Virus record (IMG/VR): IMGVR_UViG_3300042890_001557 | Span: 1 to 46,943 of that record | Direction: 5' to 3' (one strand) | Origin: a virus | DNA length: 46,943 bases | Shown here: positions 4,099-19,903 of the stretch, one piece after another | Layout of the letters: every line of letters begins with the position of its first letter | Position numbering within the stretch: position 1 is the stretch's first letter | Position numbers and translations under genes: made by a program | Notes under the pieces: generated by a model | Databases searched by the model: none | The model's input: the letters and a program-made list of their open reading frames with translations, nothing else | What the model was told of the DNA's origin: nothing

Positions 4099-5340
4099 AT
4101 GGCACAAGGATACTCATCATACAACATAATTAGTAGCGAGATTTCGTTTGCAAATACTCCTAACATAGATGCGTTCGGTAGACTAAGGGTAAGCGAGCCA
4201 TTCACCTTGTTTGACTCAAGTCATAGATTTGCTGATAATGGTCTATGGTCAACAGGAACCGCAACAGGAGGTACAGCTACATTTAATGCTGCTCAAGGAT
4301 TAGTTGATCTAGATGTAACTGCTGCATCAGGTTCTGAGGTTATTAGAGAAACTACAAAAGTATTCTCATATCAACCTGGTAAAAGTCTTTTTGTTCTAAG
4401 CACATTTGTAATGAATGCTGCTAAAACAGGTCTTAGACAAAGGGTTGGATATTATGGAGCAGCTAATGGCTATTACTTAGAACTGAATGATAGCACAGTA
4501 AGTTTTGTAGAAAGAACTTCTGTTTCAGGTTCATTAGTAAACACACCAGTTGCTCAGGCAAGTTGGAATGTTGACCCGATGGATGGTTCAGGGCCTAGTG
4601 GTATTACCCTTGATCTAACAAAAGCTCAGATCCTGTTTATGGATCTAGAATGGTTAGGGGTAGGAACAGTTAGGATAGGCTTTGTTATAAATGGTAACTT
4701 TTATGTTTGCCATAAGTTTCACCATGCTAATATTATTGCTTCTACATACATAACTACAGCATCATTACCATTAAGGTATGAGATAACAAATACAGGTGCT
4801 ACAAGTGGTGCTAGTACCTTAAAACAGATATGCTCTACCGTACTATCTGAAGGAGGATATCAACTTAATGGGCTACAGCAAGCAATTGGTATTCCAATTC
4901 AATCTCCAAGAACATTAGGAACAGCAGGAACATTTTACCCTGTAATAAGCTTACGTTTAAAATCAACAAGATTGGATGGTATTATTATTCTTACTGCTCT
5001 TTCTATAATGCCAATGAGTACAGCTAAGTTTAATTGGCAGGTAGTAGCATCTGGAACAACAACAGGTGGCACTTGGACGAGTGCAGGAGTAAACTCTTCT
5101 GTAGAATATAATATAACAGGAGCATCTTTTGCAGGAGGAAGAATACTTGCAAGTGGATTTTTTAGTGAAAGTAATCAAGCGGCAAGCCAAGTTGATATAT
5201 TGAAGGAAGCATTGTTTAAATTTCAGTTAGAAAGAAATGGATTAACATCAACACCATTTGAACTTACACTGGTAATTGCTTCTAATAGCGGTAGTGATAC
5301 TGTTGTTGCATCAATGGACTGGGAAGAAATAAGCAGATAA
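4099..5340 (+). CDS. Appendage / fibre-type structural protein, AT-rich
   Basis: A 413-residue protein opening MAQGYSSYNIISSE and DAFGRLRVSEPFTLFDS, a start seen in many phage structural proteins. The body is beta-rich with Gly/Ser/Thr turns (GTATGGTATF) and repeated short strands. Codon use is clearly more AT-rich than both neighbours (many TTA, AGA and ATA codons), so the gene looks recently acquired or under separate evolution. Spacing to neighbours is one base on each side. Likely part of the adsorption apparatus; specific function unknown. Confidence 0.7.
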   Translation: MAQGYSSYNIISSEISFANTPNIDAFGRLRVSEPFTLFDSSHRFADNGLWSTGTATGGTATFNAAQGLVDLDVTAASGSEVIRETTKVFSYQPGKSLFVLSTFVMNAAKTGLRQRVGYYGAANGYYLELNDSTVSFVERTSVSGSLVNTPVAQASWNVDPMDGSGPSGITLDLTKAQILFMDLEWLGVGTVRIGFVINGNFYVCHKFHHANIIASTYITTASLPLRYEITNTGATSGASTLKQICSTVLSEGGYQLNGLQQAIGIPIQSPRTLGTAGTFYPVISLRLKSTRLDGIIILTALSIMPMSTAKFNWQVVASGTTTGGTWTSAGVNSSVEYNITGASFAGGRILASGFFSESNQAASQVDILKEALFKFQLERNGLTSTPFELTLVIASNSGSDTVVASMDWEEISR

Positions 5341-5341
5341 T

Positions 5342-6193
5342 ATGTCACAAGGATTTACAAAAGGAACCCCGATTGATACCGACCCAACCCTGTCGCTAGA
5401 TAGTGACATCGTGGTTCCGTCGCAGTCTGCGGTAAAGGCGTATGTAGCATCTCAGGTGGGTACTCCGGTTACGGATGTTACAGCAACAGCTCCACTGGTA
5501 TCCTCTAGTGGGACAACTCCAAACCTGAGTATTCCACTTGCAACAAACTCTGTAGATGGGTACTTGAGTGCATCGGATCGTACCGCGTTTAATGCAAAGG
5601 CTGACCTTGCATCCCCTGCATTTACAGGAACGCCAACGGCTCCAACGGCATCATCGGGAGACAATAGCACTACAATAGCCACCACGGCATTTGTTCAAAG
5701 CACCATATCTGGAGGCGCGGCTGTACCTGCCTACACGATGAAGGCTAACAACACGGGGGCTTCAGCGGTTGCAACGGATCAAACATTTAGGTATCCTGGC
5801 AATCAATCCCTAGGTTCAAACCCGGTCCAAACAAGTGCTGGACTGTGGGGTGCTGGAAGTTATTACTACAATTGGAATCGCATAGGAAACATGGTCCACT
5901 ACACGTTTCAGTTTATTGTGACTACCCCTTTAGCCATTACGTATGTGAACTGGGACTTGCCGGCGGATATGCCCTCTCCATTAGTGCCTTCTGGATTTGG
6001 AACAGCTAATTATTGGCTTATAAGAAACTTTGTGACTATGGTAACAACCGCAACAGCCACAACTCAGACCACTTTTTCTGGCGGTCTAAGAGTCAAGGCG
6101 ACTTCACCTTCAACAACATTTGACTTCTACTTCTCAGGAGCCTCTGGTTCATATAAAACGGTTACGTACAGCGGAACATATTTTACTTCTTAA
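5342..6193 (+). CDS. Tail fibre protein with phage-fibre repeat module
   Basis: A 283-residue protein. The N-terminus carries SDIVVPSQSAVKAYV, then a segment related to AFNAKADLASPAFTGTPTAPTA and TTIATTAFVQ, all well-known motifs of tail-fibre shafts in lambda- and T4-type phages. The last 130 residues are a distinct aromatic beta-rich domain that would be the distal tip. It follows the AT-rich gene by one base and precedes a small protein at 6196. Good candidate for a host-range determinant. Confidence 0.8.
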   Translation: MSQGFTKGTPIDTDPTLSLDSDIVVPSQSAVKAYVASQVGTPVTDVTATAPLVSSSGTTPNLSIPLATNSVDGYLSASDRTAFNAKADLASPAFTGTPTAPTASSGDNSTTIATTAFVQSTISGGAAVPAYTMKANNTGASAVATDQTFRYPGNQSLGSNPVQTSAGLWGAGSYYYNWNRIGNMVHYTFQFIVTTPLAITYVNWDLPADMPSPLVPSGFGTANYWLIRNFVTMVTTATATTQTTFSGGLRVKATSPSTTFDFYFSGASGSYKTVTYSGTYFTS

Positions 6194-6195
6194 TC

Positions 6196-6435
6196 ATGAT
6201 AACAGCAACCCTTCCAAGTCCATTGACTTATTTCAATACCACACTCACAAAGCTGAGGTGGACGATGACATACCCCGACAACGTAGCCTACTACCAACTA
6301 ACCACATCAGACGACCTCGTGTTGAAGGATGGTCAGTGCTTTATTGACGACGCGGTGGTCCAGGCTTGGGGTACGGATGACTCAGTTATTACAGACGCAA
6401 TCATAAGTGCAGCACCTTGGAATATACAGGTTTAA
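6196..6435 (+). CDS. Small unknown protein between fibre genes
   Basis: A 79-residue acidic protein with no transmembrane segment and no cysteine pairs beyond one Cys. It starts two bases after the fibre stop codon. Small proteins directly behind a fibre gene are often fibre chaperones or tip subunits; that is only suggested by position. Family not recognised. Confidence 0.55.
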   Translation: MITATLPSPLTYFNTTLTKLRWTMTYPDNVAYYQLTTSDDLVLKDGQCFIDDAVVQAWGTDDSVITDAIISAAPWNIQV

Positions 6436-6444
6436 AATAGAAAA

Positions 6445-7545
6445 ATGCAAAACTTAGATAAGTCACTACGGTTATTGAGCCTTCCATCGGAAATGGGGGC
6501 AATCAACGGGCAGATCAACAAGAGGACAACCAAGTCCCTTGTGGAGATCTGTTTGATGGATTACACTAAGATGGTCAAGGGGGCTAACGGAAAGTTTGGA
6601 CCGACCATTACCTACAACTACGTCATAGACTCAACGGTCTCGTTGTTCGGGGCATATCCCCTGAACCTTGCCGCGATCCACTTGCATTCAAGCGACATGG
6701 ACCTTGTGAGCATGGAGGACGGAACCTTTGTATTATATCGTCCATACGAGGAGTTTACTATCGACACGGTGCTTGACTCAAGCGGAAACCTTGTCAACCT
6801 CCCAGAGGGAACAGGACAGAAGAGCTGGATCGGATGGAACGAGGTTCGCATCGTCCCTACAGCTAACGGGTATGACTATAATTTCTACTACGAGCAGGGG
6901 TTTAATAACTACTTCGGGGTCTATTACCCACACGACGAGAACGTGATGTGGAGATCAATCCTTCGAAAGACCTTCATAAAGACCACATCGACCCCAAATC
7001 CGACACGTTTTACCAAGTCCTACCCTAAGTATACTATTGCTGAATTGAAGGCAAAGGCGGGGCTGAATGACTTCCAACTAGCCGACGCATTCGGGACTAC
7101 ATGGCACGTTGAGTTTAAGAGCCACGACACACACTGCTTGAACATTGCATCGGACATTGTTATGGTTGACGACACCACGTTAAATGGTGAGGTTTATATC
7201 AACGGCATATTGGCTAAGGACATTCCGTACACCAGCCTTATCAGCTCGTATGGCAAACTTCTTCCGGACTTCGTGTGTAGGTGGAAGCTGTACAATGACA
7301 AGTTCACAAAGACCGGAACCAACGTGTTCGGGACTGCGTGGGATATTACTCTGTACTCCAACCAAGACACGACCATAAGACTTGTCAAGGGTGACGAGGT
7401 TAAGTACGACCAAGCAACCAAGATGCTGACTTACCCTGAAGGAAGCAGACTCGTGTTTGACTTTGAGTTTCTCCCTGCCCAGGGCAAGAACGAAACTAGC
7501 GGCTCGGCAATCGATTTAGATGCAATGAACAAATACCTTTTATGA
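6445..7545 (+). CDS. Unknown structural protein (366 residues)
   Basis: A soluble protein rich in Tyr, Asp, Asn and beta-branched residues, with no signal peptide or membrane segment. Regions such as VYYPHDENVMWRSILRKTF and the C-terminal SRLVFDFEFLP suggest a folded beta-rich domain. The stop codon overlaps the start of the candidate holin (ATGA). Its position at the end of the fibre block and before lysis genes argues for a virion component. I do not recognise the family. Confidence 0.6.
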   Translation: MQNLDKSLRLLSLPSEMGAINGQINKRTTKSLVEICLMDYTKMVKGANGKFGPTITYNYVIDSTVSLFGAYPLNLAAIHLHSSDMDLVSMEDGTFVLYRPYEEFTIDTVLDSSGNLVNLPEGTGQKSWIGWNEVRIVPTANGYDYNFYYEQGFNNYFGVYYPHDENVMWRSILRKTFIKTTSTPNPTRFTKSYPKYTIAELKAKAGLNDFQLADAFGTTWHVEFKSHDTHCLNIASDIVMVDDTTLNGEVYINGILAKDIPYTSLISSYGKLLPDFVCRWKLYNDKFTKTGTNVFGTAWDITLYSNQDTTIRLVKGDEVKYDQATKMLTYPEGSRLVFDFEFLPAQGKNETSGSAIDLDAMNKYLL

Positions 7546-7934
7546 AAAAGATACTACGCAAACTACAACTCTTCGACGGGATATGGACTATCCCGCTCGC
7601 ATTCTTTATTTTTTTACTCGCAGGATCCTACAGCGCCGAGTATTTCGGTGACGGACTGATCTCCACGGAGTACATTCAGCAGGTTTTACTTGCCGCACTT
7701 GTCATGGTTTTTGCTAACTTTGTGGTATTCCTTGGTGCGTTCTTCAACTTCCGTGGTTTACAGAACTACTTTTATTCGAAACACGCCAAGGAGGAAATCG
7801 AATACGCATCTACACCATGGCAAAGAATCGTTTTATACCTTGTTGTTTACTTTGGATTACTCTTATCCTTCCTTCTAATCTTGTGGCTGATAATGACGGT
7901 TACTGCGTCCGTGCCACTGCCGCTTCCTTTGTAG
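7542..7934 (+). CDS. Three-helix membrane protein, candidate holin
   Basis: A 130-residue protein with a basic N-terminus (MKKILRKLQ) and three hydrophobic segments, about residues 14-30, 45-70 and 95-122. The last one is followed by only a short tail. It lies directly before a secreted peptidoglycan hydrolase, the usual place of a holin. Its last 39 codons, including the third membrane segment, overlap in another frame the start of the hydrolase gene, so the overlap encodes a membrane helix in one frame and a signal peptide in the other. Holin function is inferred from topology and context. Confidence 0.6.
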   Translation: MKKILRKLQLFDGIWTIPLAFFIFLLAGSYSAEYFGDGLISTEYIQQVLLAALVMVFANFVVFLGAFFNFRGLQNYFYSKHAKEEIEYASTPWQRIVLYLVVYFGLLLSFLLILWLIMTVTASVPLPLPL

Positions 7935-8401
7935 GCGTAAAGGAGAAAGGAGGTAACAACAAGGGTTTCAATGACAGAGACCTCCAGAAGATGATGGCGG
8001 CTGTCGGGTGGAAGCCCGGCTACGCGTGGTGTGCATTCTTTGTCCGGGCTATCCTGGACGAGTGCGGCATCCCAAACAACATTACTGGGTGGTCTCCGTC
8101 TGCTTATAACACAAAGGATGTAATCTTTACAGATGGGAGATTTTATCAAAGCTTTCGTGATGGCGATGTCCTTGTTGCCACATACACATACTCAAACTTC
8201 AAAAGGTCAAGATACAAGGGAATCGGACACACCGGGATCGTAGACCGCATTGGAGAGTATTCGGTAAGGGTTATCGAGGGGAATACTAACGAACAAGGAA
8301 TGCGTGACAGTCGGTCACGGGATGGGGTCTACGTCAAGATCCGTCCATTGTCTAAGAACACCCACATAACAAGGTGGAAGAAGTCCTCAAGGTTTCGATA
8401 A
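7817..8401 (+). CDS. Secreted peptidoglycan hydrolase (endolysin), CHAP/NlpC-P60-like
   Basis: A 194-residue protein. Residues 1-24 form a signal peptide (basic start, hydrophobic core, LVA before the predicted cleavage). The catalytic domain shows the Cys nucleophile in YAWCAFFV (Cys72), the His in GIGHTGIV (His138) and a polar residue in EGNTN (Asn156), the order found in CHAP/NlpC-P60 cysteine amidases and peptidases. The C-terminus is basic. Export by a signal peptide would place it in the periplasm, with the upstream membrane protein controlling timing. The 118-base out-of-frame overlap with that gene is unusual. Its stop codon runs into the terminator at 8401. Confidence 0.75.
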   Translation: MAKNRFIPCCLLWITLILPSNLVADNDGYCVRATAASFVGVKEKGGNNKGFNDRDLQKMMAAVGWKPGYAWCAFFVRAILDECGIPNNITGWSPSAYNTKDVIFTDGRFYQSFRDGDVLVATYTYSNFKRSRYKGIGHTGIVDRIGEYSVRVIEGNTNEQGMRDSRSRDGVYVKIRPLSKNTHITRWKKSSRFR

Positions 8402-8427
8402 AAAAAAGGCCACCCCGTTGGATGGCC
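8401..8427 (-). terminator. Terminator between convergent lysis genes
   Basis: GGCCA and TGGCC form a stem around a 10-base loop; on the - strand it is followed by seven T. It ends the leftward transcript that carries the spanin-like genes. In the rightward direction the tail is only CTCTTT, so termination there would be weak. Confidence 0.7.
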
Positions 8428-8463
8428 CTCTTTCAACAATAAACAACTATAACAACTATAACA

Positions 8464-8880
8464 CTAGAACACAAAAAAATATAACGTCGTGGCGGAAGTA
8501 ACAATCGTTGCACACTTCCAGAATATCTTTCTCCTTCTCTCCTTCTTCATCTCCTGCTTCATGTCAAGGTATTGAGTCTTTAGGAACCTAATCTCTGCGA
8601 TCTGATTCTGACGAACCTCGTTGCAAAGGTCGTTATTTTCTATAGCCAAGTCAAGGGCTATTTGGGCAGCCTCTAGCTGGTCCTTCATCTGCTGTATACG
8701 CATCGAACGTGACTCTATGGTCATCTTGTTCTGCCGGATGGTCTCAGCGGCTGCTGATACGATCTCTTGTGCCTCTCTTGGGAGCTGTGGAATCTCACTC
8801 GGCTGGCTGTAGACGGCCTGAGCGATACTCATTAAGAAGATAATTCCAAGAGAGCGTGTAAAGTTTTTGTAGCGTGTCAT
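8464..8880 (-). CDS. Signal-bearing coiled-coil protein with C-terminal membrane helix, spanin-like partner
   Basis: A 138-residue protein. Residues 1-25 form a signal sequence (SLGIIFLMSIAQAVYSQ). Residues 35-115 are a long charged coiled coil, then a basic patch (KKERRRKIFWK) and a short hydrophobic C-terminal helix ending YFFVF. The start lies 86 bases inside the end of the upstream gene in another frame, as in Rz/Rz1-type spanin pairs. Together with the neighbouring endolysin this suggests a protein that bridges the periplasm during lysis. There is no lipobox, so it is not a classical outer-membrane lipoprotein spanin. Confidence 0.6.
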   Translation of the reverse strand: MTRYKNFTRSLGIIFLMSIAQAVYSQPSEIPQLPREAQEIVSAAAETIRQNKMTIESRSMRIQQMKDQLEAAQIALDLAIENNDLCNEVRQNQIAEIRFLKTQYLDMKQEMKKERRRKIFWKCATIVTSATTLYFFVF

Positions 8881-9193
8881 TTGGCATTTTGGGTATTCGT
8901 GAAATCAATATCTTAGACTTGGCTATCTGCTCCTGCTCTATGACGAACTGCTTCTCGTCCTGTACAAGCAGGGAGTCGATGGCGGCCTTGGTTTCCTGTA
9001 CGATGATGATGTTCTGGTCCATCTTGGCCTCGTACTTTTCGGTTATCTCATGCAGCCTGTCTATGGCCACGGCCTCGTTCTCGGAGCTTTCCTTCAGACC
9101 TCCCATGTGGAAGACTAGAAAGAACACCCCGCAGAGGATGACCACGCTTAGCGCGAGGATGATGAGGGTATAAATGTTTTTGGTCTTGTTCAT
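8795..9193 (-). CDS. Inner-membrane anchored coiled-coil protein, candidate i-spanin
   Basis: Start chosen at ATG 9193 (MNKTKNIYTL); the frame extends upstream only through a TTG. The 132-residue protein has one N-terminal membrane helix (about residues 6-28) and a periplasmic coiled coil rich in Glu, Gln and Lys, with a C-terminal aromatic segment. This is the topology of an inner-membrane spanin. Its end overlaps the next gene by 86 bases. The gene pair faces the endolysin across a shared terminator. Function is inferred from architecture only. Confidence 0.6.
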   Translation of the reverse strand: MNKTKNIYTLIILALSVVILCGVFFLVFHMGGLKESSENEAVAIDRLHEITEKYEAKMDQNIIIVQETKAAIDSLLVQDEKQFVIEQEQIAKSKILISRIPKMPNDTLQKLYTLSWNYLLNEYRSGRLQPAE

Positions 9194-9241
9194 GCTATTC
9201 AAAGTTAGCGTATCCCAGGTCTTCCCAGGTGGGTGGGTCAA

Positions 9242-9856
9242 TCATTTTATTCTCTTATTTAGTTTTCTAGCAGGTGTGTGTATCGCTTTATACGGATCCC
9301 ATCCCCTTTTTATTCTGTGGTATATCGTAGCAAATTCCACTTCAATCTTCAACCTATCAACTAACATCCTTAGCGACTCCTTCTTTCCTTCATACTGCAC
9401 ATACATGGTGTTTCTCCTGTTATTGCAGTTGGTTTTGCTGTCTACAAATCTACAATTTTCTGGGGAATATCCCAAGTAATTATCTATTCGGTCTATCTGC
9501 AAGCCATGTTTGTATCCGTTTGCAATAGCCCATGACTTAAATGCTTGAAAGGAATCAAGCCACTCCTTACAAACAGCTATACCCCGGTCATAGTATATGT
9601 GTTTCTCGTGGTGATTGGGTTTGCACCTTGTTCTAATTGAGTTCCATACAGTATATAGTTTTGTGTTGCTTTCACCATGCACGTCCTTCCCTAAACATCC
9701 ACAAGACTTTATCCTTCCCCTGAACAGGTGAACTTTTCGAATCACCTTTTCTTTCCCGCAATCGCACCGACATAAAAAGGCTTTATTCTTTTGGCCGCAC
9801 GGCAGCACAATGTCCGAAACCTTTTCAATGATCGTCAACATTCCATATTTGTCCAT
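9242..9856 (-). CDS. Free-standing HNH homing-type endonuclease with zinc ribbon
   Basis: A 204-residue protein. The N-terminus has two Cys groups, CRCDC (29-33) and SCGC (51-54), that bind zinc in this family. Then comes the typical stretch LYTVWNSIRTRC, YDRGIAVCKEW, LQIDRIDN (119-126) and SPENCRFVDS, the HNH-type catalytic region known from phage-encoded homing nucleases, and a C-terminal DNA-binding-like part. The gene has its own promoter (9874-9904), is more AT-rich than its neighbours, and interrupts an otherwise coherent block, all signs of a mobile gene. It would cut a related phage genome lacking it. Confidence 0.8.
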   Translation of the reverse strand: MDKYGMLTIIEKVSDIVLPCGQKNKAFLCRCDCGKEKVIRKVHLFRGRIKSCGCLGKDVHGESNTKLYTVWNSIRTRCKPNHHEKHIYYDRGIAVCKEWLDSFQAFKSWAIANGYKHGLQIDRIDNYLGYSPENCRFVDSKTNCNNRRNTMYVQYEGKKESLRMLVDRLKIEVEFATIYHRIKRGWDPYKAIHTPARKLNKRIK

Positions 9857-9873
9857 ATTGCAATTTGTTTTTG

Positions 9874-9904
9874 CAAATATAACAAACTTCAGTTACCGAA
9901 GCAA
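9874..9904 (-). promoter_or_regulatory. Promoter of the HNH gene
   Basis: On the - strand: TTG (9902-9904), about 20 bases, TATATTTG (9874-9881), then 17 bases to the ATG at 9856. Confidence 0.6.
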
Positions 9905-9908
9905 TATA

Positions 9909-9932
9909 AAGTCGTTTTTTTATCAACGACTT
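9909..9932. repeat. Perfect 8-bp inverted repeat between divergent nuclease genes
   Basis: AAGTCGTT and AACGACTT are perfect complements around TTTTTATC. The element sits immediately upstream of the HNH promoter and 30 bases before the rightward nuclease gene, so it could be an operator serving both directions or a small hairpin in the rightward mRNA leader. Confidence 0.5.
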
Positions 9933-9961
9933 GGTTTACCTTTGATGCAAGATATATCAAT

Positions 9962-10477
9962 ATGCCAAGACGAAACGCAAGAACCCGATTTGACACTGTA
10001 AGAAAGGCTGGCCCGAAGAAGGGGAGCCGCGGAAAGATAAAAGCCACGCAAAAGATGGTTGATGGGATACAGTTCAAGTCGATGCTAGAGGTTTTCACGT
10101 ACCGCAAACTGCTTGAGTTTGAGCTTCGTTTCGAATATGAAAAGAAGAAGTTTGTTATCATGCAAGGGTTTGAATATCCAGAGTGTTCTTGGCAGGACAC
10201 CCCTAGTGCAGGTTATCAAGACAAAGGGTATAGTAAGGTCAGAGACATTACATACACCCCAGACTTCATTGGTTACGATTCAAAGGGGAATATTAAGTGG
10301 GTTATTGAGTGCAAGGGCTTTGCTAACGAGCGCTTCCCCAATACATGGAAGCTATTTAAGAAAACTCTTGTAGATCAAGGCGCCGCTGTTCCGCTGTACC
10401 TCCCTAAGAACCAAAAACAAGTGCTAGAATCTATCGAAAAAATACTTCTGTTAGGCGAGCCACCCCTTCTCTCTTGA
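9962..10477 (+). CDS. PD-(D/E)XK endonuclease of the DUF1064 / junction-resolvase-like type
   Basis: Start placed at ATG 9962 (MPRRNARTRF), because the sequence upstream holds the HNH promoter region on the other strand. The 171-residue protein has a basic N-terminus, then VDGIQFKSMLE (Glu43), TYTPDFIGYD (Asp101) and WVIECKG (Glu116, Lys118). This is the E...D...ExK metal-binding arrangement of PD-(D/E)XK nucleases and matches the DUF1064 pattern 'DG..F.S..E...DF...E.KG'. It is the only rightward gene in this part of the leftward block and converges with the NinG-like gene, overlapping it by 27 bases. Likely processes branched DNA during replication or packaging. Confidence 0.75.
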   Translation: MPRRNARTRFDTVRKAGPKKGSRGKIKATQKMVDGIQFKSMLEVFTYRKLLEFELRFEYEKKKFVIMQGFEYPECSWQDTPSAGYQDKGYSKVRDITYTPDFIGYDSKGNIKWVIECKGFANERFPNTWKLFKKTLVDQGAAVPLYLPKNQKQVLESIEKILLLGEPPLLS

Positions 10478-10825
10478 TTCTTTGGGGTGTGTTTCGACGT
10501 ACTGATGACAATTCCTGCACAGAGCCATCCAAGTTTTGACGTTTAGATAGTTTTCTCCGCGCCGGTGGACGTGGTGTACATCTGTTGCTCGTAAGAAGCA
10601 GCCTGGAAGATTTAGTTTGCAGTGAGGATGGTTGGTCAGGAATACATCTCGAAGGGCGTAGTAAGCCTTGTCGTCTTTCTTTTTCTTCTCGCTTACTTTA
10701 TTAATCTTGTTCTTTACCCCGTATTCAATCTTACACTCGATGTTCTCACACGTTGCCTGCATCGTGCTGTACTTAGGGATAAACTCCTGCCTACAGATCC
10801 TGCACTTCTTATTCCTCGCCTTCAT
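10451..10825 (-). CDS. NinG-like HNH recombination protein
   Basis: A 124-residue protein. The N-terminus has a zinc site C8-x2-C11 ... C26-x4-C31, a lysine-rich linker follows, and the C-terminal half has C69, C76, ATDVHHVHRRG (80-90) and CRNCH (103-107). The order zinc ribbon, linker, ATDVHH, CRxCH is that of lambda NinG and related HNH proteins implicated in recombination. The 3' end overlaps the convergent nuclease gene by 27 bases. A NinB-like gene occurs about 2 kb upstream in the same block, which supports a recombination module. Confidence 0.7.
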   Translation of the reverse strand: MKARNKKCRICRQEFIPKYSTMQATCENIECKIEYGVKNKINKVSEKKKKDDKAYYALRDVFLTNHPHCKLNLPGCFLRATDVHHVHRRGENYLNVKTWMALCRNCHQYVETHPKESREKGWLA

Positions 10826-10833
10826 ATACTATC

Positions 10834-11109
10834 TTATTTTTCGGCAGGTTTCCACTCTGCCTGTTCTTTAGCCAGGTTTGCCTTGACGGTTTCTTCGAGT
10901 ATCGTTGTGTAGAACTCGCCATACTTCTCGTCGTCGATGTGTTGTTTGAATTGCTCATAGTCTGCCTGTACGGCAAAGGTAGTCGATCCGTTCGTTGTAC
11001 GCAACACCGTGAAGTTCCAAAGTTTATTTTCTACACCGGGGAACGACATGGTTATGGTTCCGCTAAAGTGTTCCACCTTCTTAGATGGCTTGTCAGAGAT
11101 TTTAATCAT
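10834..11109 (-). CDS. Small unknown acidic protein
   Basis: A 91-residue protein with a beta-rich first half (SGTITMSFPGVENKLWNFTVLRTT) and a helical, Lys/Glu-rich tail ending EWKPAEK. It overlaps the previous gene by 8 bases and precedes the NinG-like gene closely, so it belongs to the same operon. No recognised motif. Confidence 0.6.
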   Translation of the reverse strand: MIKISDKPSKKVEHFSGTITMSFPGVENKLWNFTVLRTTNGSTTFAVQADYEQFKQHIDDEKYGEFYTTILEETVKANLAKEQAEWKPAEK

Positions 11110-11560
11110 AGTTTTTAAAGTGTTTGTTGAAAAAGTATTTCGGTATATCAGAATGACTTAGTTGTACCCTCTCGGCGTTGCCTCCGGTTGCCTTTATTCT
11201 TTCGGCCATAGGGACAAGGGACTTGTTTATGTTTCCCCATACCGATGGGTTGTATACGATGGCCGTGTTGCTGTATGTACCATTTAGGAAGGATGGCCTT
11301 GTCGATGGGTCTATCAGCCCCACAAACGCGTATCTGCTGTCGTAGTTCTTTAGCACGTCTATACCACCCGCGCTGAATCCCACAAGGGCTGTTGTTTGGT
11401 AGTCAACATCCGGATCAACCACGGCTAGTGGCGTTCCGTATGGCACAATAAATATCTCATACCTTGACCACATCCAATCGGGAACCTGCTTCTTCATCCA
11501 AGTAGGCGTGGCGTAGTGCATGCCGCACCATATGACTATGGTACACAGCAGGGGGTTCAC
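11102..11560 (-). CDS. Alpha/beta-hydrolase-like protein (compact)
   Basis: A 152-residue protein starting with GTG, in a GTGA overlap with the preceding stop. After a hydrophobic start it has a strand (YEIFIVPYGT), the nucleophile elbow LVGFSAGG (GxSxG at 61-65, Ser63), a possible acid in LIDPSTRP (Asp84) and a late His in LSHSDIP (His136). Ser-Asp-His in this order is the catalytic triad of alpha/beta hydrolases. The protein is much shorter than the usual 200 or more residues, so it would be a minimal or decayed fold. Substrate unknown; a surface esterase or superinfection role is possible but speculative. Confidence 0.55.
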   Translation of the reverse strand: MNPLLCTIVIWCGMHYATPTWMKKQVPDWMWSRYEIFIVPYGTPLAVVDPDVDYQTTALVGFSAGGIDVLKNYDSRYAFVGLIDPSTRPSFLNGTYSNTAIVYNPSVWGNINKSLVPMAERIKATGGNAERVQLSHSDIPKYFFNKHFKNYD

Positions 11561-11775
11561 AGCTTGATGTTGTAGTTATTGATGATTTCGTAGAATTGTT
11601 CGTATACCTCGTTATACGCCTCCCACTGTTTCTCGTCATGGGTGTCGTACTTGACCTTGCCCCTGAGGTATTGTCGGATTCCGTCTAATGCAATCCTCAT
11701 GTCGAGGGCTTTAACTGCGAGGTCGAAGTCAGACTGATCTTCCGGCAAATTGAATTCAAGTATTGCTTTACTCAT
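11557..11775 (-). CDS. Small conserved-looking phage protein
   Basis: A 72-residue acidic helical protein (MSKAILEFNLPEDQSDFDLAVKALD...). The pattern 'EFNLPED...DF..A.KA..M..AL......LR...KY' recurs in small proteins of many tailed phages, function unknown. It overlaps the gene before by 4 bases and the gene after by GTGA, so it is translationally coupled. Confidence 0.65.
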   Translation of the reverse strand: MSKAILEFNLPEDQSDFDLAVKALDMRIALDGIRQYLRGKVKYDTHDEKQWEAYNEVYEQFYEIINNYNIKL

Positions 11776-12047
11776 TTGTTTTTCTTGTATTTGCTAAAGC
11801 TAAAGAAATCCTTTAGGTCAGCTATCATGGTTTTACGCTTCTCGTACATTGTTTCGTAATAGGTGCTACCAGCAGGGCAGTTCGGCATATATGCATCGAA
11901 GTTAGTACCCGAATTGAACGCGCCCTCAATCTGTTCGCGTTCCATTGCCTTGGCCTTTCTGATCAGCTCTGGTCTGATAAACGTGGAGTTTAGGCAGTCG
12001 CTGTTGACTTGTTCAACTAGCCATTCTACTGCTGTCTGTTCATTCAT
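11772..12047 (-). CDS. Small unknown helical protein
   Basis: A 91-residue protein opening MNEQTAVEWLVEQV, followed by KAKAMEREQIEGAFNSG, a pattern often seen in short proteins of phages of Bacteroidota. Tyr- and Lys-rich C-terminus. It couples to the next gene by a 4-base overlap. Function unknown. Confidence 0.65.
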   Translation of the reverse strand: MNEQTAVEWLVEQVNSDCLNSTFIRPELIRKAKAMEREQIEGAFNSGTNFDAYMPNCPAGSTYYETMYEKRKTMIADLKDFFSFSKYKKNK

Positions 12048-12060
12048 TTGTCAAATCAGT

Positions 12061-12294
12061 TTAGTTGATGATTGATATCAAGAACCCGATTATCCCCCCG
12101 GCCTGGGTCGCCATGATGTCTCCATAGCTGAACCTCTTGCCGTTGTAGTTGTCATACAGCTCCTTTGCTACCGCTGCGGTAAACACGGCGATAAGGGAGA
12201 ATACAGGCGTGATCAGTATGGAAGATAGTCCATAGATTACTACGCCGTAGATGGCGTGGTTCGCCTTGTCTTTTTCAAACATTGGTAAATTCAT
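12061..12294 (-). CDS. Small two-helix membrane protein, YfiM/DUF2279-like
   Basis: Start chosen at ATG 12294 (MNLPMFEKDKANH), because a TATCTTTG -7 box ends only 4 bases upstream and the longer reading would begin inside regulatory sequence. The 77-residue protein has DKANHAIYG, two hydrophobic segments, KELYDNYNG and a final D-x-x-A-T-Q-x-G-G motif, matching the 'DKxNHxxxG ... KExxD ... DxxAxxxG' pattern of DUF2279/YfiM-type phage proteins. Membrane located. Possible lysis or exclusion accessory; function unknown. Confidence 0.65.
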   Translation of the reverse strand: MNLPMFEKDKANHAIYGVVIYGLSSILITPVFSLIAVFTAAVAKELYDNYNGKRFSYGDIMATQAGGIIGFLISIIN

Positions 12295-12298
12295 TTTA

Positions 12299-12329
12299 CA
12301 AAGATAACTTATGTGTTGTTTTAATGCAA
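12299..12329 (-). promoter_or_regulatory. Promoter giving a nearly leaderless mRNA
   Basis: On the - strand: TTG (12327-12329), 20 bases, TATCTTTG (12299-12306), then TAAA and the ATG at 12294. Transcription should begin at or next to the start codon. Confidence 0.6.
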
Positions 12330-12337
12330 TTATTTTT

Positions 12338-12370
12338 TTTGACTTTGGTGTTGTGGCCACCATATTTTTG
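12338..12370 (+). promoter_or_regulatory. Rightward promoter candidate for structured RNA
   Basis: TTTG (12338-12341), 21 bases, TATTTTTG (12363-12370). It is divergent from the promoter at 12299-12329 and points into a gene-free region that holds two structured segments. Confidence 0.45.
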
Positions 12371-12376
12371 CTTCAT

Positions 12377-12477
12377 AATCCTTGTCTTTCGGTGTGTAGA
12401 GAGCAGCGAAAGGCTAAGGAAGAAGGAATAAACCCCTTTGCCCAAGCCCTGGTCTCTCTACACGGGGCTTTTTTTTT
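12377..12477 (+). ncRNA. Candidate ~100-nt structured RNA with pseudoknot potential and terminator
   Basis: A perfect 10-bp stem joins GTGTAGAGAG (12394-12403) to CTCTCTACAC (12454-12463). A second 6-bp stem joins AAGCCC (12444-12449) to GGGCTT (12465-12470), directly followed by a run of T. The two stems interleave, giving an H-type pseudoknot with 40-, 4- and 1-base connectors, or a switch between terminator and alternative fold. A promoter-like box lies just upstream and no convincing gene overlaps on either strand. Confidence 0.5.
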
Positions 12478-12605
12478 ACCCGTTCCCCACCCATCCGAAT
12501 CAGCCCTGTCGGTGCAAGAGGCAAACTTCATACGCGAGTATGTTGGATCGGGTAGCTGCCCCTTTGTGGGGCGGGGTAGTTTGTTTTTCACGGGGGGAGG
12601 CTTTT
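12478..12605 (+). other. Second gene-free structured segment
   Basis: It can fold as a domain closed by ACCCATCC (12489-12496) with GGATCGGGT (12545-12553, one bulged C), containing a perfect CATAC/GTATG hairpin with a GCGA (GNRA) tetraloop at 12529-12542, followed by a GCCCC/GGGGC hairpin at 12558-12571 and a T-rich stretch. The short frames here look non-coding. Together with the previous entry it fills the gap 12300-12618. Confidence 0.35.
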
Positions 12606-12618
12606 TCTTTTCTTCTCT

Positions 12619-13020
12619 TTAGGTTTCTTCTTGACTTGTTTCTTTTCTCTGTCTTTTCTTTTGAATGAGTCTCATAAGCCAGACATGGAAGATAACCGGT
12701 AAGATTACACAGAAGATTACAGAAGACGCAACGTAGCCTACCCCCAGCGGCTTGAACAGGTACAGGAAATATACACACGCCATGAACAGCGTGTCACACA
12801 GCTCGCTGACGTTGCCGCTGATCAACACCGTGGCAACCACGACCGTTGCGTATGACGCCTTGAGCACGTGTGTCCGGTATGCCCTGTCTACCATCCATGC
12901 CCATACCATTGGGACTATCACGAAGTACACTAGGATGTTTGCCTCGTTGTAGCTTATCCCTAAAAAGTTGGCCATCTTTACGAGGCCGTATGCTGTCGCA
13001 CTAAATGTTTCCTGTATCAT
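12619..13020 (-). CDS. Four-helix membrane protein
   Basis: A 133-residue protein with about four hydrophobic segments (near residues 25-45, 55-70, 75-95 and 98-118) and a strongly basic C-terminus ending QKKRQRKETSQEET. The N-terminus includes FLGISYNEANILVYFVIVP, a sequence type I associate with small membrane proteins in phages of Bacteroidota. It overlaps the previous gene by 4 bases. A holin or exclusion role is possible; nothing in the sequence decides. Confidence 0.65.
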   Translation of the reverse strand: MIQETFSATAYGLVKMANFLGISYNEANILVYFVIVPMVWAWMVDRAYRTHVLKASYATVVVATVLISGNVSELCDTLFMACVYFLYLFKPLGVGYVASSVIFCVILPVIFHVWLMRLIQKKRQRKETSQEET

Positions 13021-13451
13021 GTTATTTCAAGTTGTTCGTTTGGGTCGGGGATGTATATGTCTAGCGTCTCGGCAGCGAACTGCTTGACGTGTTCGACGTA
13101 TTCCATAAACTCTTCCGTGGCAAGCTCCGACGTCTTGCGTGGAATCTTCATCACCTCTCCGGAGGTGGGGTCAGTAAACTCCGTGTATAGAAACCTTCCC
13201 TTGAGGAACTCATGCGTGAGGTCTCGGTCGACGTCGTGTCCAAGCTCGCGTAGTCTCTGCGATATCATGGCCACGACCACGCCCCAATAGTACGCGTTCT
13301 GCACGTCTGACCGGAAACGCTTCTTCAGTTTAACTTCGACGGTCACAGCCAAGTCCGTATCACGGGACATAGCCCTGACGTCCTCTTCGAAGAGGGGGCG
13401 GTTGTAGATCCGCAACGCCCCCTGTGGTGTGATCACTGCGCTGTGCTTCAT
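13017..13451 (-). CDS. NinB-like recombination protein
   Basis: Start set at ATG 13451 (MKHSAVITPQG), which overlaps the previous stop as ATGA and has GGAGG a few bases upstream, a rare Shine-Dalgarno-like site here. The 144-residue protein shows the family pattern: RFRSDVQNAYYWGVVV, then HEFLKGRFL, KTSELATEEFMEYVEHV and a C-terminal IYIPDP. This matches NinB/Orf-type recombination mediators of lambda-like phages ('R.S..QNAYYWG...H..LK...T..L...EF..Y...IP.P'). It would help recombinase loading or replace RecFOR. Confidence 0.75.
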   Translation of the reverse strand: MKHSAVITPQGALRIYNRPLFEEDVRAMSRDTDLAVTVEVKLKKRFRSDVQNAYYWGVVVAMISQRLRELGHDVDRDLTHEFLKGRFLYTEFTDPTSGEVMKIPRKTSELATEEFMEYVEHVKQFAAETLDIYIPDPNEQLEIT

Positions 13452-13681
13452 TGTATCCTCCACACTCTGACTCCGGTATCGAATACTTGAGTCTTGAATT
13501 TGTATTTGTCATTCTTTTTGCAGAACATACAAGCAGCTGCTGATATTTTCTTGCGTACAGGTTCGGGGTCTGCATCAGTAATGAAGAACGAGTCGCCTAC
13601 TACCATGTCTCTGAATGGGTACTTGCCTGACCTTGTGGTTTGCTTGGGTGCTGGCACATTCTTTTCGATTTGAATTTTCAT
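13448..13681 (-). CDS. Small phage protein with RxWR ending
   Basis: A 77-residue basic protein with SGKYPFRDMVVGDSFF in the first half and a C-terminal VRVWRI. The pattern 'YPF..M.VGDSF ... KF.T......VRVWR' is common in small phage proteins of unknown function. It contains one CMFCKK pair. Start overlaps the preceding stop (4 bases) and stop overlaps the NinB-like start (ATGA). Confidence 0.7.
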   Translation of the reverse strand: MKIQIEKNVPAPKQTTRSGKYPFRDMVVGDSFFITDADPEPVRKKISAAACMFCKKNDKYKFKTQVFDTGVRVWRIQ

Positions 13682-17806: not shown

Positions 17807-18100
17807 TTAATACATTGAAGATTGCAGTTCTTCCGCTTCGCTGTAACTTTCTAAAAACGTCTCTTCTCCGTCTTCGAAGTTGGTCACTAAATACTCAACG
17901 CCGCGCCCTAACATTGAACATATCGAAATGCCGTTTTCGAGAGCGATGTATACATAACCGCTGTTTGAATTGAAGCCGACGTCCATAATTGATTCGCCCG
18001 CGCACTCGTCCGCGTATGCTTGAAAACAAACTGCCAGCCCTTGCGCTTCGCAAAATGCGATTGAATCGTTGATTCCGTGAATTTCTAAAGTGTTGTTCAT
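17807..18100 (-). CDS. Unknown acidic 97-residue protein
   Basis: A soluble protein with five cysteines and a very acidic C-terminus (DGEETFLESYSEAEELQ). Alternating hydrophobic strands (GYVYIALENGISICSML) suggest a small beta domain. It lies directly downstream of the first tRNA-like element (18154-18196), with about 50 bases of leader in between. Acidic small early proteins in phages can mimic DNA or inhibit host enzymes; this is only a possibility. Confidence 0.6.
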   Translation of the reverse strand: MNNTLEIHGINDSIAFCEAQGLAVCFQAYADECAGESIMDVGFNSNSGYVYIALENGISICSMLGRGVEYLVTNFEDGEETFLESYSEAEELQSSMY

Positions 18101-18153: not shown

Positions 18154-18196
18154 AAGCACGGAGGGGAGTCGAACCCCTCCTACTACCATAGTGCTT
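18154..18196 (-). ncRNA. tRNA-like minihelix 1 (acceptor + T-arm, no anticodon arm)
   Basis: Read on the - strand: AAGCAC, ten bases (TATGGTAGTA), GGAGGGG, the loop TTCGACT, CCCCTCC, GTGCTT. The 6-bp outer stem and 7-bp inner stem would stack as a 13-bp acceptor/T-arm helix, and the loop matches the T-loop consensus UUCRANY. The D-loop-like TGGTAGT occupies the connector. There is no room for an anticodon arm and no encoded CCA. It lies in the gap between two genes. Confidence 0.55.
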
Positions 18197-18419
18197 AGTC
18201 CGTGAAGGCCACGCGGAGTCTGACCCCGTCCACCTCCTTAGTGAAGGTGATGTACCCGTATGAGTCTACTGAGGACTCGAAGCCCTCTAGCTTGCATACG
18301 ACCGAGGGGTTGAACCTGCCCTGCGCGGTGATGTCGTGGCGGGTGAAGGTTACGGAGTAGAAGTTTTCAACGCCTAGCTCTTCACACATGATTTGCATTG
18401 CTCCTTGGCTCTTTGTCAT
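18195..18419 (-). CDS. Unknown small protein flanked by tRNA-like elements
   Basis: Start set at ATG 18419 (MTKSQGAMQIMCEE); a GTG at 18434 is in frame but belongs to the CAA-rich leader. The 74-residue protein is beta-rich (NFYSVTFTRHDITAQGRF) with no known motif. It is the first gene of the leftward accessory block, about 270 bases behind its probable promoter. Both flanks carry tRNA-like minihelices, so its mRNA may be cut out as a separate unit. Confidence 0.55.
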   Translation of the reverse strand: MTKSQGAMQIMCEELGVENFYSVTFTRHDITAQGRFNPSVVCKLEGFESSVDSYGYITFTKEVDGVRLRVAFTD

Positions 18420-18457
18420 TGTTGTTGTTTTCACGTTGTTGGGGTTTAAAATGTTAG

Positions 18458-18507
18458 AACAACGCTAGGATTCGAACCTAGAAGACCACCCCGTCGGCGT
18501 CGTTGTT
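18458..18507 (-). ncRNA. tRNA-like minihelix 2 (7-bp acceptor + 5-bp T-arm)
   Basis: On the - strand: AACAACG, 19 bases including GAC-GGGGTG-GTC, CTAGG, the loop TTCGAAT, CCTAG, CGTTGTT. The acceptor (7 bp) and T-stem (5 bp) are perfect and of exactly normal tRNA length, and the loop fits UUCRANY. The 19-base connector could form a stunted D-arm but no anticodon arm. No CCA is encoded. This is the minimal helix recognised by RNase P and CCA enzymes. Confidence 0.6.
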
Positions 18508-18697
18508 ACAATTGCTGTTGTTGGATTGCGACCTTGTGTATTGTACGTCCTTTCGGCTATCAGTACAGCGGGTGGTAGGTGTCATCGGCTACCCCTATCG
18601 CTCCCCACCTGTTCGGTGGCATGCTTTGAACACACAGGGTCAATACGTCAAAGAACTTTTGTCATTTGTAGAGAACCATTGTTCCCTTTTGACGTTG
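18508..18697 (-). other. Long structured leader of the accessory block
   Basis: A gene-free leader between promoter and first gene. It begins with a hairpin (ACGTCAAA at 18645-18652 with TTTGACGT at 18688-18695, extended by GAAC/GTTC), then contains CCACC/GGTGG, GGTAG/CTACC and TGTAC/GTACA pairs, and ends in tRNA-like minihelix 2. Such a folded leader is unusual in a genome whose other leaders are short. Confidence 0.5.
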
Positions 18698-18731
18698 CAA
18701 ATATAAATGAAAGTCTAAGTTTAATTCCAAA
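18698..18731 (-). promoter_or_regulatory. Promoter of the leftward accessory block
   Basis: Perfect TATATTTG read on the - strand (18698-18705), with TTTG/TTGG 21-22 bases upstream (18727-18731), slightly longer than ideal spacing. Transcription would start just at the 5' hairpin of the leader. Confidence 0.55.
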
Positions 18732-18790
18732 TTTAATTTAAGTTCTACAGCATTAGTGTTTACAGGGCTTTCAAAAAAGCAACCTTCTGA

Positions 18791-18938: not shown

Positions 18939-19774
18939 TAGGGAGTGATGCTGAAAGCCGCGTAAATACTGATGAAATCGATCGATACGACCGGCGGGAA
19001 ATAGTCAAAATGTGGTAGTTCTCACATAGTCTACAGAAGAGAGAAAGAGACCAAAAGCAAGTAAACAGGAAAGGGAAGGAAACAAGCAAGCCAACAAGCA
19101 CAGGACAGGCCGTGCGCGGGCAATTACACCACCGATTCCACCAGGTAACACAATAACAGCATAAGAGAAGGTAAAGAGCAAATAAGGCACTCGCACACGC
19201 TCGCATATTAGAAAACTCAAATTGGGGTTACCTCAAGTAAAATTCCCCGCAATCGAGCACAATCCAGCAGCGGCGCGGGTTTGCGGTGGTTTCTGTGGGC
19301 TTGCATGGTCATGGCGAGCAGGTTATTGGGGCTGTCGAGCAGGCACAATCATGCACGGCTTAACGTGCTGATAGTTAACACGTTGGTACTTTAATGCAAA
19401 CGCATTGATTATCAAGGGTTTAGTCTACTTTCTCCACGGGCTGGAGACAAGTTTACCGCGCAGTAGGGGAGCTGCACGATATGGGTGAGGGGGTGTGCGG
19501 GGCTGGCCTGTTGTGTGTGGTTACTACGGGCCTAAGGTTGCACGATAGGACAACACGACCAGCGGTTACATGACGGGCCGCGGTTTATATTATTACACAA
19601 CGCTGCACCCCGCATTGTTCCACGAATGTTCCACGCTCTACTGTATGCCGTAGTAGGTTGATACACAGATAGATAGGTAAGTCATTGGCGTACAGTCAGT
19701 TATGACCCCACCCCTGTTGCCAAGTCGACTTCGGGTCGGGTAGGTGGCGGTGGCCGTGTGGGGGGTGACCCCAA

Positions 19775-19897
19775 CCATAGTGAGTTTACAACCATGATGA
19801 GTTTACGGATTGTGTACCCCCACCAGGATGAGTTTGTAAAACGCGCACTACAACCATGGTGAGTTTATAATTTATTGACCCCCACCAGCATGAGTTT
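19775..19897. repeat. Five iteron-like direct repeats, mostly 31 bp apart
   Basis: Copies of CCAnnnTGAGTTT begin at 19775, 19792, 19823, 19854 and 19885. The spacings are 17, 31, 31 and 31 bp, about three helical turns, so bound proteins would line up on one face. The last four copies also form two imperfect 62-bp units with alternating flanks (ACAACCATG and CCCCCACCAG). The array ends about 30 bp before the promoter at 19904-19937. Confidence 0.7.
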
Positions 19898-19903
19898 TCA
19901 GAA

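Follow-up and report, generated by a model that had tools for sequence, protein, structure and literature searches.

Many unrelated phages place folds resembling the top half of a tRNA, without an anticodon arm, at the gene boundaries of their operons, which suggests that they make use of the host's tRNA-trimming machinery. Two such elements, A and B, lie beside a small gene in the window, the whole stretch of 46,943 nucleotides that was analysed, and are members of a large unannotated RNA family. The fold is supported by covariation, the elements sit at gene junctions throughout the family and predominantly on one strand, and they are specific to phages. We consider it likely that they punctuate operon transcripts between cistrons, as tRNA mimics made for this purpose and cut by host tRNA-maturation enzymes.

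Two tRNA-like elements in a minus-strand operon

The window, a virus contig from IMG/VR, has genes for proteins of the head and of packaging, for a primase-helicase and for a Cas4-like exonuclease. Element B (18458..18507) and element A (18154..18196) are both on the minus strand, and each folds alone into an acceptor stem plus T-arm (z = -1.2 for B and -3.0 for A), as the original prediction of two such elements on one strand had it. The z-score of B makes folding energy by itself unconvincing for this element. The T-loops read from the letters, TTCGACT in A and TTCGAAT in B, and the 7 + 5 bp of the second element are also correct. Element A is a minihelix of the short class, with a 6-bp acceptor (AAGCAC/GTGCTT) stacked on a 7-bp T-arm (GGAGGGG-TTCGACT-CCCCTCC) and a 10-nt linker, TATGGTAGTA, that includes GG. 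Element B is a tRNA mimic of the long class, with a 7-bp acceptor (AACAACG/CGTTGTT), a 5-bp T-arm (CTAGG-TTCGAAT-CCTAG) and a 19-nt linker. Both have the tail CTAA. The description of the pair as minihelices lacking an anticodon arm was right about the arm but too narrow for B: its linker is able to fold a D-arm-like hairpin of four pairs (CGCC-GACGG-GGUG), so that B is better described as a tRNA from which the anticodon arm is missing than as a bare minihelix.

The elements were expected before and after a small gene, and the order is indeed element, gene, element, gene. Element B ends 38 nt ahead of the ATG of a 74-residue gene (18195..18419, minus strand), whose TAA stop codon contributes its AA as the first two acceptor bases of element A. 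The ATG (18100) of the next gene, of 97 residues (17807..18100, minus strand), lies 53 nt past the acceptor end of A. No relatives of the 74-residue gene were found among viral contigs. Upstream of B is a structured leader RNA (18530..18645, minus strand) that is kept in relatives and has no Rfam match. It is about 110 nt long, lies between a putative promoter and element B, and has 12 pairs with compensatory changes among five sequences; the relatives L063, L027, L012 and L031 share it, and other relatives have different leaders at this place. The promoter motif (18685..18735, minus strand; TTTG ... TATATTTG), read from the sequence, is one that we take to be Bacteroidota-like and that would start the minus-strand operon. 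Between the divergent operons, positions 19760-19900 of the window contain repeated ATGAGTTT motifs (ccatgatgagtttac, cagcatgagtttt). A distant blastn search of the window locus against isolated phages gave no match, an exact 22-nt piece of B used as a query gave none either, and tblastn with the primase found only distant phages of Flavobacterium, Cellulophaga and similar hosts.

The stems covary in relatives and in unrelated phages

Relatives were gathered through the exonuclease and the primase, yielding 145 loci (2.07 Mb) that were scanned on both strands. The two-stem search gave 81 matches, a few of which are true tRNAs, compared with 1 in Markov-shuffled copies of the loci. One match in 2.07 Mb of shuffled sequence corresponds to about 0.02 matches expected by chance in the window. 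A covariance model, R1, was built from 30 distinct short elements. Element A, itself one of the training sequences, scores 47.3 bits (E 8e-10). Element B scores only 12.8 bits with this short-class model because it belongs to the longer class. In the related loci R1 has 66 matches, all on the operon strand.

Among the 30 short elements of the family, 8 of the 13 pairs show compensatory changes on both sides, and the covariation is 0.495, compared with 0.134 after shuffling and no more than 0.149 when the partners are slid. Across unrelated phages (set A3), 11 of 13 pairs are compensatory and the covariation is 0.928 versus 0.180 after shuffling; the scanner used to choose this set accepts paired candidates only, so its percentage of paired positions is inflated. 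A DNA pattern silent on the acceptor is free of this bias: about 52 of its 64 viral matches have a paired acceptor, versus about 2-5 of 70 in bacterial genome contigs. Another pattern, GGTYGCNNGNNNNGGTTCGANTCC, had 18 viral matches, with only L308 a clear fit. Among 201 genomes of one host family, the helix was found only in the genome already known to carry it; the 200 further genomes gave none. The original prediction had named loss of the stems in relatives as an outcome that would count against it; instead, the stems are kept as pairs through covariation.

These data bear on whether the elements are eroded tRNA genes or chance hairpins. Phages carry and lose tRNAs, and the fold of B, taken by itself, is only a little better than those of its shuffles. 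However, a single match in 2 Mb of shuffled sequence and the extensive compensatory change contradict this explanation, and the same trimmed architecture is present in unrelated phages. We find it hardly credible.

A constant stack, T-loop and elbow

The build of the elements is constant. In most of them the acceptor and T stems form a stack of 12-13 bp, and none has an anticodon arm. The T-loop TTCGANY and a GG in the linker are invariant or nearly so, whereas almost every stem pair varies in sequence, and stems also differ within one genome. Short-form linkers with GG include ATGGTGC, TTGGAGC, TTGGAAC and ATGGTCGC. By analogy with tRNA, the GG appears to be placed as the D-loop GG would be to form the elbow. 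Linkers are 10-13 nt long in the short class and 19-43 nt in the long class, neither of which has a standard anticodon arm. Long-class elements in relatives (AACAACG, AGCAACG or AACGACG...CGTTGTT) stand first, behind a leader RNA, and long forms have unrelated hairpins in place of the anticodon arm, one of them capped by GCAA. The acceptor is followed on its 3' side by CCA in L177, a 69-kb freshwater contig, and elsewhere by C-TAA, A-CG or N-CAA.

Two further features were observed. In contig G019, which has 10 helices, several T-loops (L314; G019 4500-13500) are ATCGTTT or ATCGTCT (ATCGTNT) and not TTCGANT, an apparent swap of letters 54 and 58 that may keep the pair across the loop. A second conserved stretch of about 100 nt, CTCTGCTCAC-GCAGGCTCGTAATGCAACGAGGGGAGG...GCGGCAACGGC..., probably structured, lies after one helix class and before the next gene; it was seen in L011, L018, L021, L029, L039, L054 and L063, downstream of helices of the AACAGGA/AACATGG type.

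The elements mark gene junctions in metagenomic phages

Relatives of the window carry several helices each, at gene junctions and without exception on the operon strand. Their 5' end lies on or beside the upstream stop codon, and their 3' end about 15-50 nt ahead of the next start codon. When the unrelated contigs are included, the upstream stop is mostly within -12..+7 nt and the downstream start about 13-60 nt away. In the freshwater family the order of stop codon, helix, 13-53 nt and start codon is repeated, and placement at gene junctions recurs in unrelated viral contigs found by the DNA pattern scan. In L177, helices and single genes alternate, with 11 helices within 4.5 kb. Most of its open reading frames begin about 36-43 nt past one helix and have their stop -9 to +2 nt from the following one, and a small second hairpin is found ahead of most start codons. 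Genes in metagenomic contigs are simple open reading frame calls, and this crude caller mis-called genes in L177; the count of 64 of 95 helices outside open reading frames consequently understates the intergenic placement. The placement in L177 was therefore taken from gene-by-gene checks. Regions of L177, L178 and the L198 contig gave no blastn match to phage isolates.

One contig is different. In G004 (IMGVR_UViG_3300021431_000087) five minihelices stand in tandem at 92886-93445, about 105-140 nt apart, a spacing too tight for ordinary genes between them and unlike the punctuation pattern. This array is what one might expect of decoys or sponges for tRNA-targeting host defences or tRNA enzymes, and the mimicry of the tRNA top half, with high copy numbers in single phages (11 in L177, 15-17 in VanLee), points the same way. 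Against such a role, the elements have no anticodon to offer, their stems differ within one genome, and the copies are not pooled: each gap has one, fixed in place relative to stop and start codons, an arrangement for which a sponge has no need. The decoy function, one of the uses first suggested for A and B, is weakened by these observations and now seems quite improbable.

Helices fill the leftward gaps of an isolated phage

The elements are also present in cultivated phages. Searches with single elements by blastn mostly returned T-arms of true tRNAs, yet they led to VanLee, which, like its relatives Morgana and Cafasso, is a soil-actinobacterial phage isolated on Gordonia rubripertincta. 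Its genome announcement reports one tRNA and does not mention the repeats (PMC8320454). Within the leftward runs of small genes in VanLee (L288), a T-arm is found by a strict test in 16 of 17 gaps of at least 50 nt, a count that excludes the 362-nt promoter gap; the 17th gap (L288 32285-32461) has a degenerate copy of the helix. Only 1 of 14 rightward gaps has a T-arm, apparently that of the annotated tRNA-Arg (Fisher p 1e-5, leftward versus rightward). No helix was found in the VanLee gaps of less than 50 nt between coupled genes, and no T-arm hairpin in its 42-kb structural half. Helices bound segments of 1-5 genes each, and Morgana and Cafasso keep them at the gene junctions of the same operon. 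Apart from a doubtful tRNA-Val that overlaps one VanLee helix, ARAGORN calls none of the helices.

Matches in Roseobacter phage DSS3P8, SlimJimmy, Vincenzo and SSBI34 look like odd or ordinary tRNAs. In DSS3P8 (L280) a possible anticodon-less tRNA with a D-arm and an encoded ACCA lies at 1481-1538, just upstream of the annotated tRNA-Ala. Ray17 and Acinetobacter phage ZZ1 have T-arm-like elements with shorter linkers.

The restriction of helices to gaps where genes are not translationally coupled raises the question whether the fold simply stays in the mRNA uncut, as an insulator or end protector that is no substrate for tRNA enzymes. It could act as a barrier to ribosome read-through, prevent translational coupling or block exonucleases. 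The stacks are very stable, and many helices are accompanied by a second small hairpin before the ribosome-binding site, consistent with this idea. But any strong hairpin would serve these purposes, and there would be no reason to keep TTCGANY, GG and a length of 12-13 bp while the stems drift. We regard insulation without cleavage as unlikely.

The segments also argue on a further alternative, in which the elements are junctions at the DNA level, attC-like sites or homology joints that shuffle accessory genes, with an incidental RNA fold. In the freshwater family, similar helices precede different small genes in different phages, and L177 is built of single-gene units, as cassettes would be. 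The VanLee segments, however, hold up to five genes, the dissimilar stems within a genome provide little homology, and what is conserved in sequence is the tRNA elbow. Cassette exchange is accordingly a very improbable origin of the pattern.

Relation to known RNAs and phage repeats

The elements differ from canonical tRNA genes in having the acceptor and T arm without the anticodon arm, and ARAGORN calls no tRNA in the window. No Rfam 15 family matches the window at its gathering score. With relaxed thresholds, mascRNA-menRNA (RF01684) is the best sub-threshold Rfam match of B (18.5 bits; 17.4 bits for A), far from its gathering score of 42.5. The RNAs of this family, which function in 3' processing of MALAT1 and MEN-beta, share the anticodon-less tRNA-like fold, and there RNase P and RNase Z process a long transcript; they differ in that they belong to vertebrate nuclear lncRNAs and are present as a single copy at the 3' end. 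Ro proteins bind tRNA-like Y RNAs, and bacterial Y RNA (YrlA) likewise has a tRNA-like module. To our knowledge, Y RNAs are not intercistronic. VanLee, with about 17 tRNA mimics, encodes a Ro-like RNA-binding protein, gp126 (L288 23552-25168), next to its tRNA-Arg gene.

Reiterated intergenic repeats have been described in other phages. The SAS/ESAS elements of Cluster K mycobacteriophages are also found in gaps upstream of genes in non-structural operons; ESAS are 17-bp inverted repeats beside the GGGATAGGAGCCC SAS (PMC3203893). Those of TM4 are plain hairpins without a T-loop or acceptor/T architecture, and the right half of the TM4 genome has no minihelix. The intergenic motifs of Microbacterium phages (Cluster EC) are similarly reiterated and similarly placed (PMC7302621), and the Quhwah motif has no T-arm. 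Neither is an earlier description of the elements; segments of TM4, Quhwah and MementoMori contain 0-1 T-arm hairpins. RNase P is known to have several substrates that are not tRNAs, among them phage RNAs and polycistronic mRNAs (PMC11143913). These substrates of the E. coli enzyme (Li and Altman; C4 antisense RNA; M3 RNA; PMC11143913) are isolated and irregular, in contrast to the reiterated, dedicated family of phage helices. The original prediction knew of no described phage system of this kind, and we found none in the literature searched, the open subset of PubMed Central.

A close parallel is in mitochondria, where RNase P and RNase Z excise tRNAs that lie between mRNAs. The phage elements resemble this punctuation system in being tRNA-shaped units at gene junctions on one strand, in overlapping the stop codon in some cases (U|AA) and in the very short leaders that the mRNAs would have. 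The difference is that in mitochondria the marks are genuine tRNAs, which have anticodons and work in translation, whereas in the DNA phages they are mimics that lack the anticodon and for which no other use is evident.

A model for operon punctuation

RNase Z and the CCA-adding enzyme read stack length, T-loop and elbow GG and ignore the stem sequence. RNase P likewise reads the elbow and uses the acceptor/T stack as a ruler (PMC4919913). Most elements, at 12-13 bp, fit its rule of a coaxial acceptor/T stack of about 12 bp plus an elbow. The constant stack, T-loop and elbow GG, together with the position at gene junctions, make operon punctuation the simplest explanation. We infer that the helices are transcribed within a polycistronic phage mRNA and that host tRNA-maturation enzymes would recognise them by shape. 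The cut by RNase P would fall at the 5' end of the acceptor, beside the stop codon of the preceding gene; a second cut, past the discriminator base, would be made by RNase Z or by a different enzyme of 3' processing. The transcript would thus be split into short mRNAs with brief 5' leaders, capped in several phages by a small hairpin, and the minihelix would be released or left as a protective end. That A and B may be processing signals was part of the original prediction, which gains strong support of a circumstantial kind from the junctions, the single strand, the multiplicity, the 12-13 bp ruler and the elbow, combined with stems that are free to vary.

Three observations stand against punctuation. 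E. coli RNase P prefers CCA, and it is a puzzle that most elements have no encoded CCA. It is also puzzling that in the window family the RNase P cut predicted from sequence falls inside the stop codon (U|AA); a cut there would yield a non-stop mRNA, unless it is shielded by translation or its end is lengthened afterwards. Finally, some elements have no gene between them, as in the tandem array of G004.

The novelty lies in the class of element, purpose-made tRNA mimics without an anticodon that stand at the gene junctions of phages. Should cleavage be proven, they would work on the principle of tRNA punctuation in mitochondria. We put at about even the broader proposition that phages of several bacterial groups share, or have converged on, one dedicated mark. 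On this view, an anticodon-less mimic would direct host RNase P and RNase Z to divide operon mRNAs into shorter messages, often of one gene each, and in some phages the cut would lie within the stop codon, as it does in mitochondria. If true, this would add to phage gene expression a general layer that has not been seen before, in which an RNA signal divides operons into processing units and purpose-built tRNA mimics punctuate the operon RNA of DNA phages, a role so far known for real mitochondrial tRNAs. It would also account for intergenic elements of an unannotated kind, which escape current tRNA finders and Rfam, and would expose a dependence of these phages on host RNase P.
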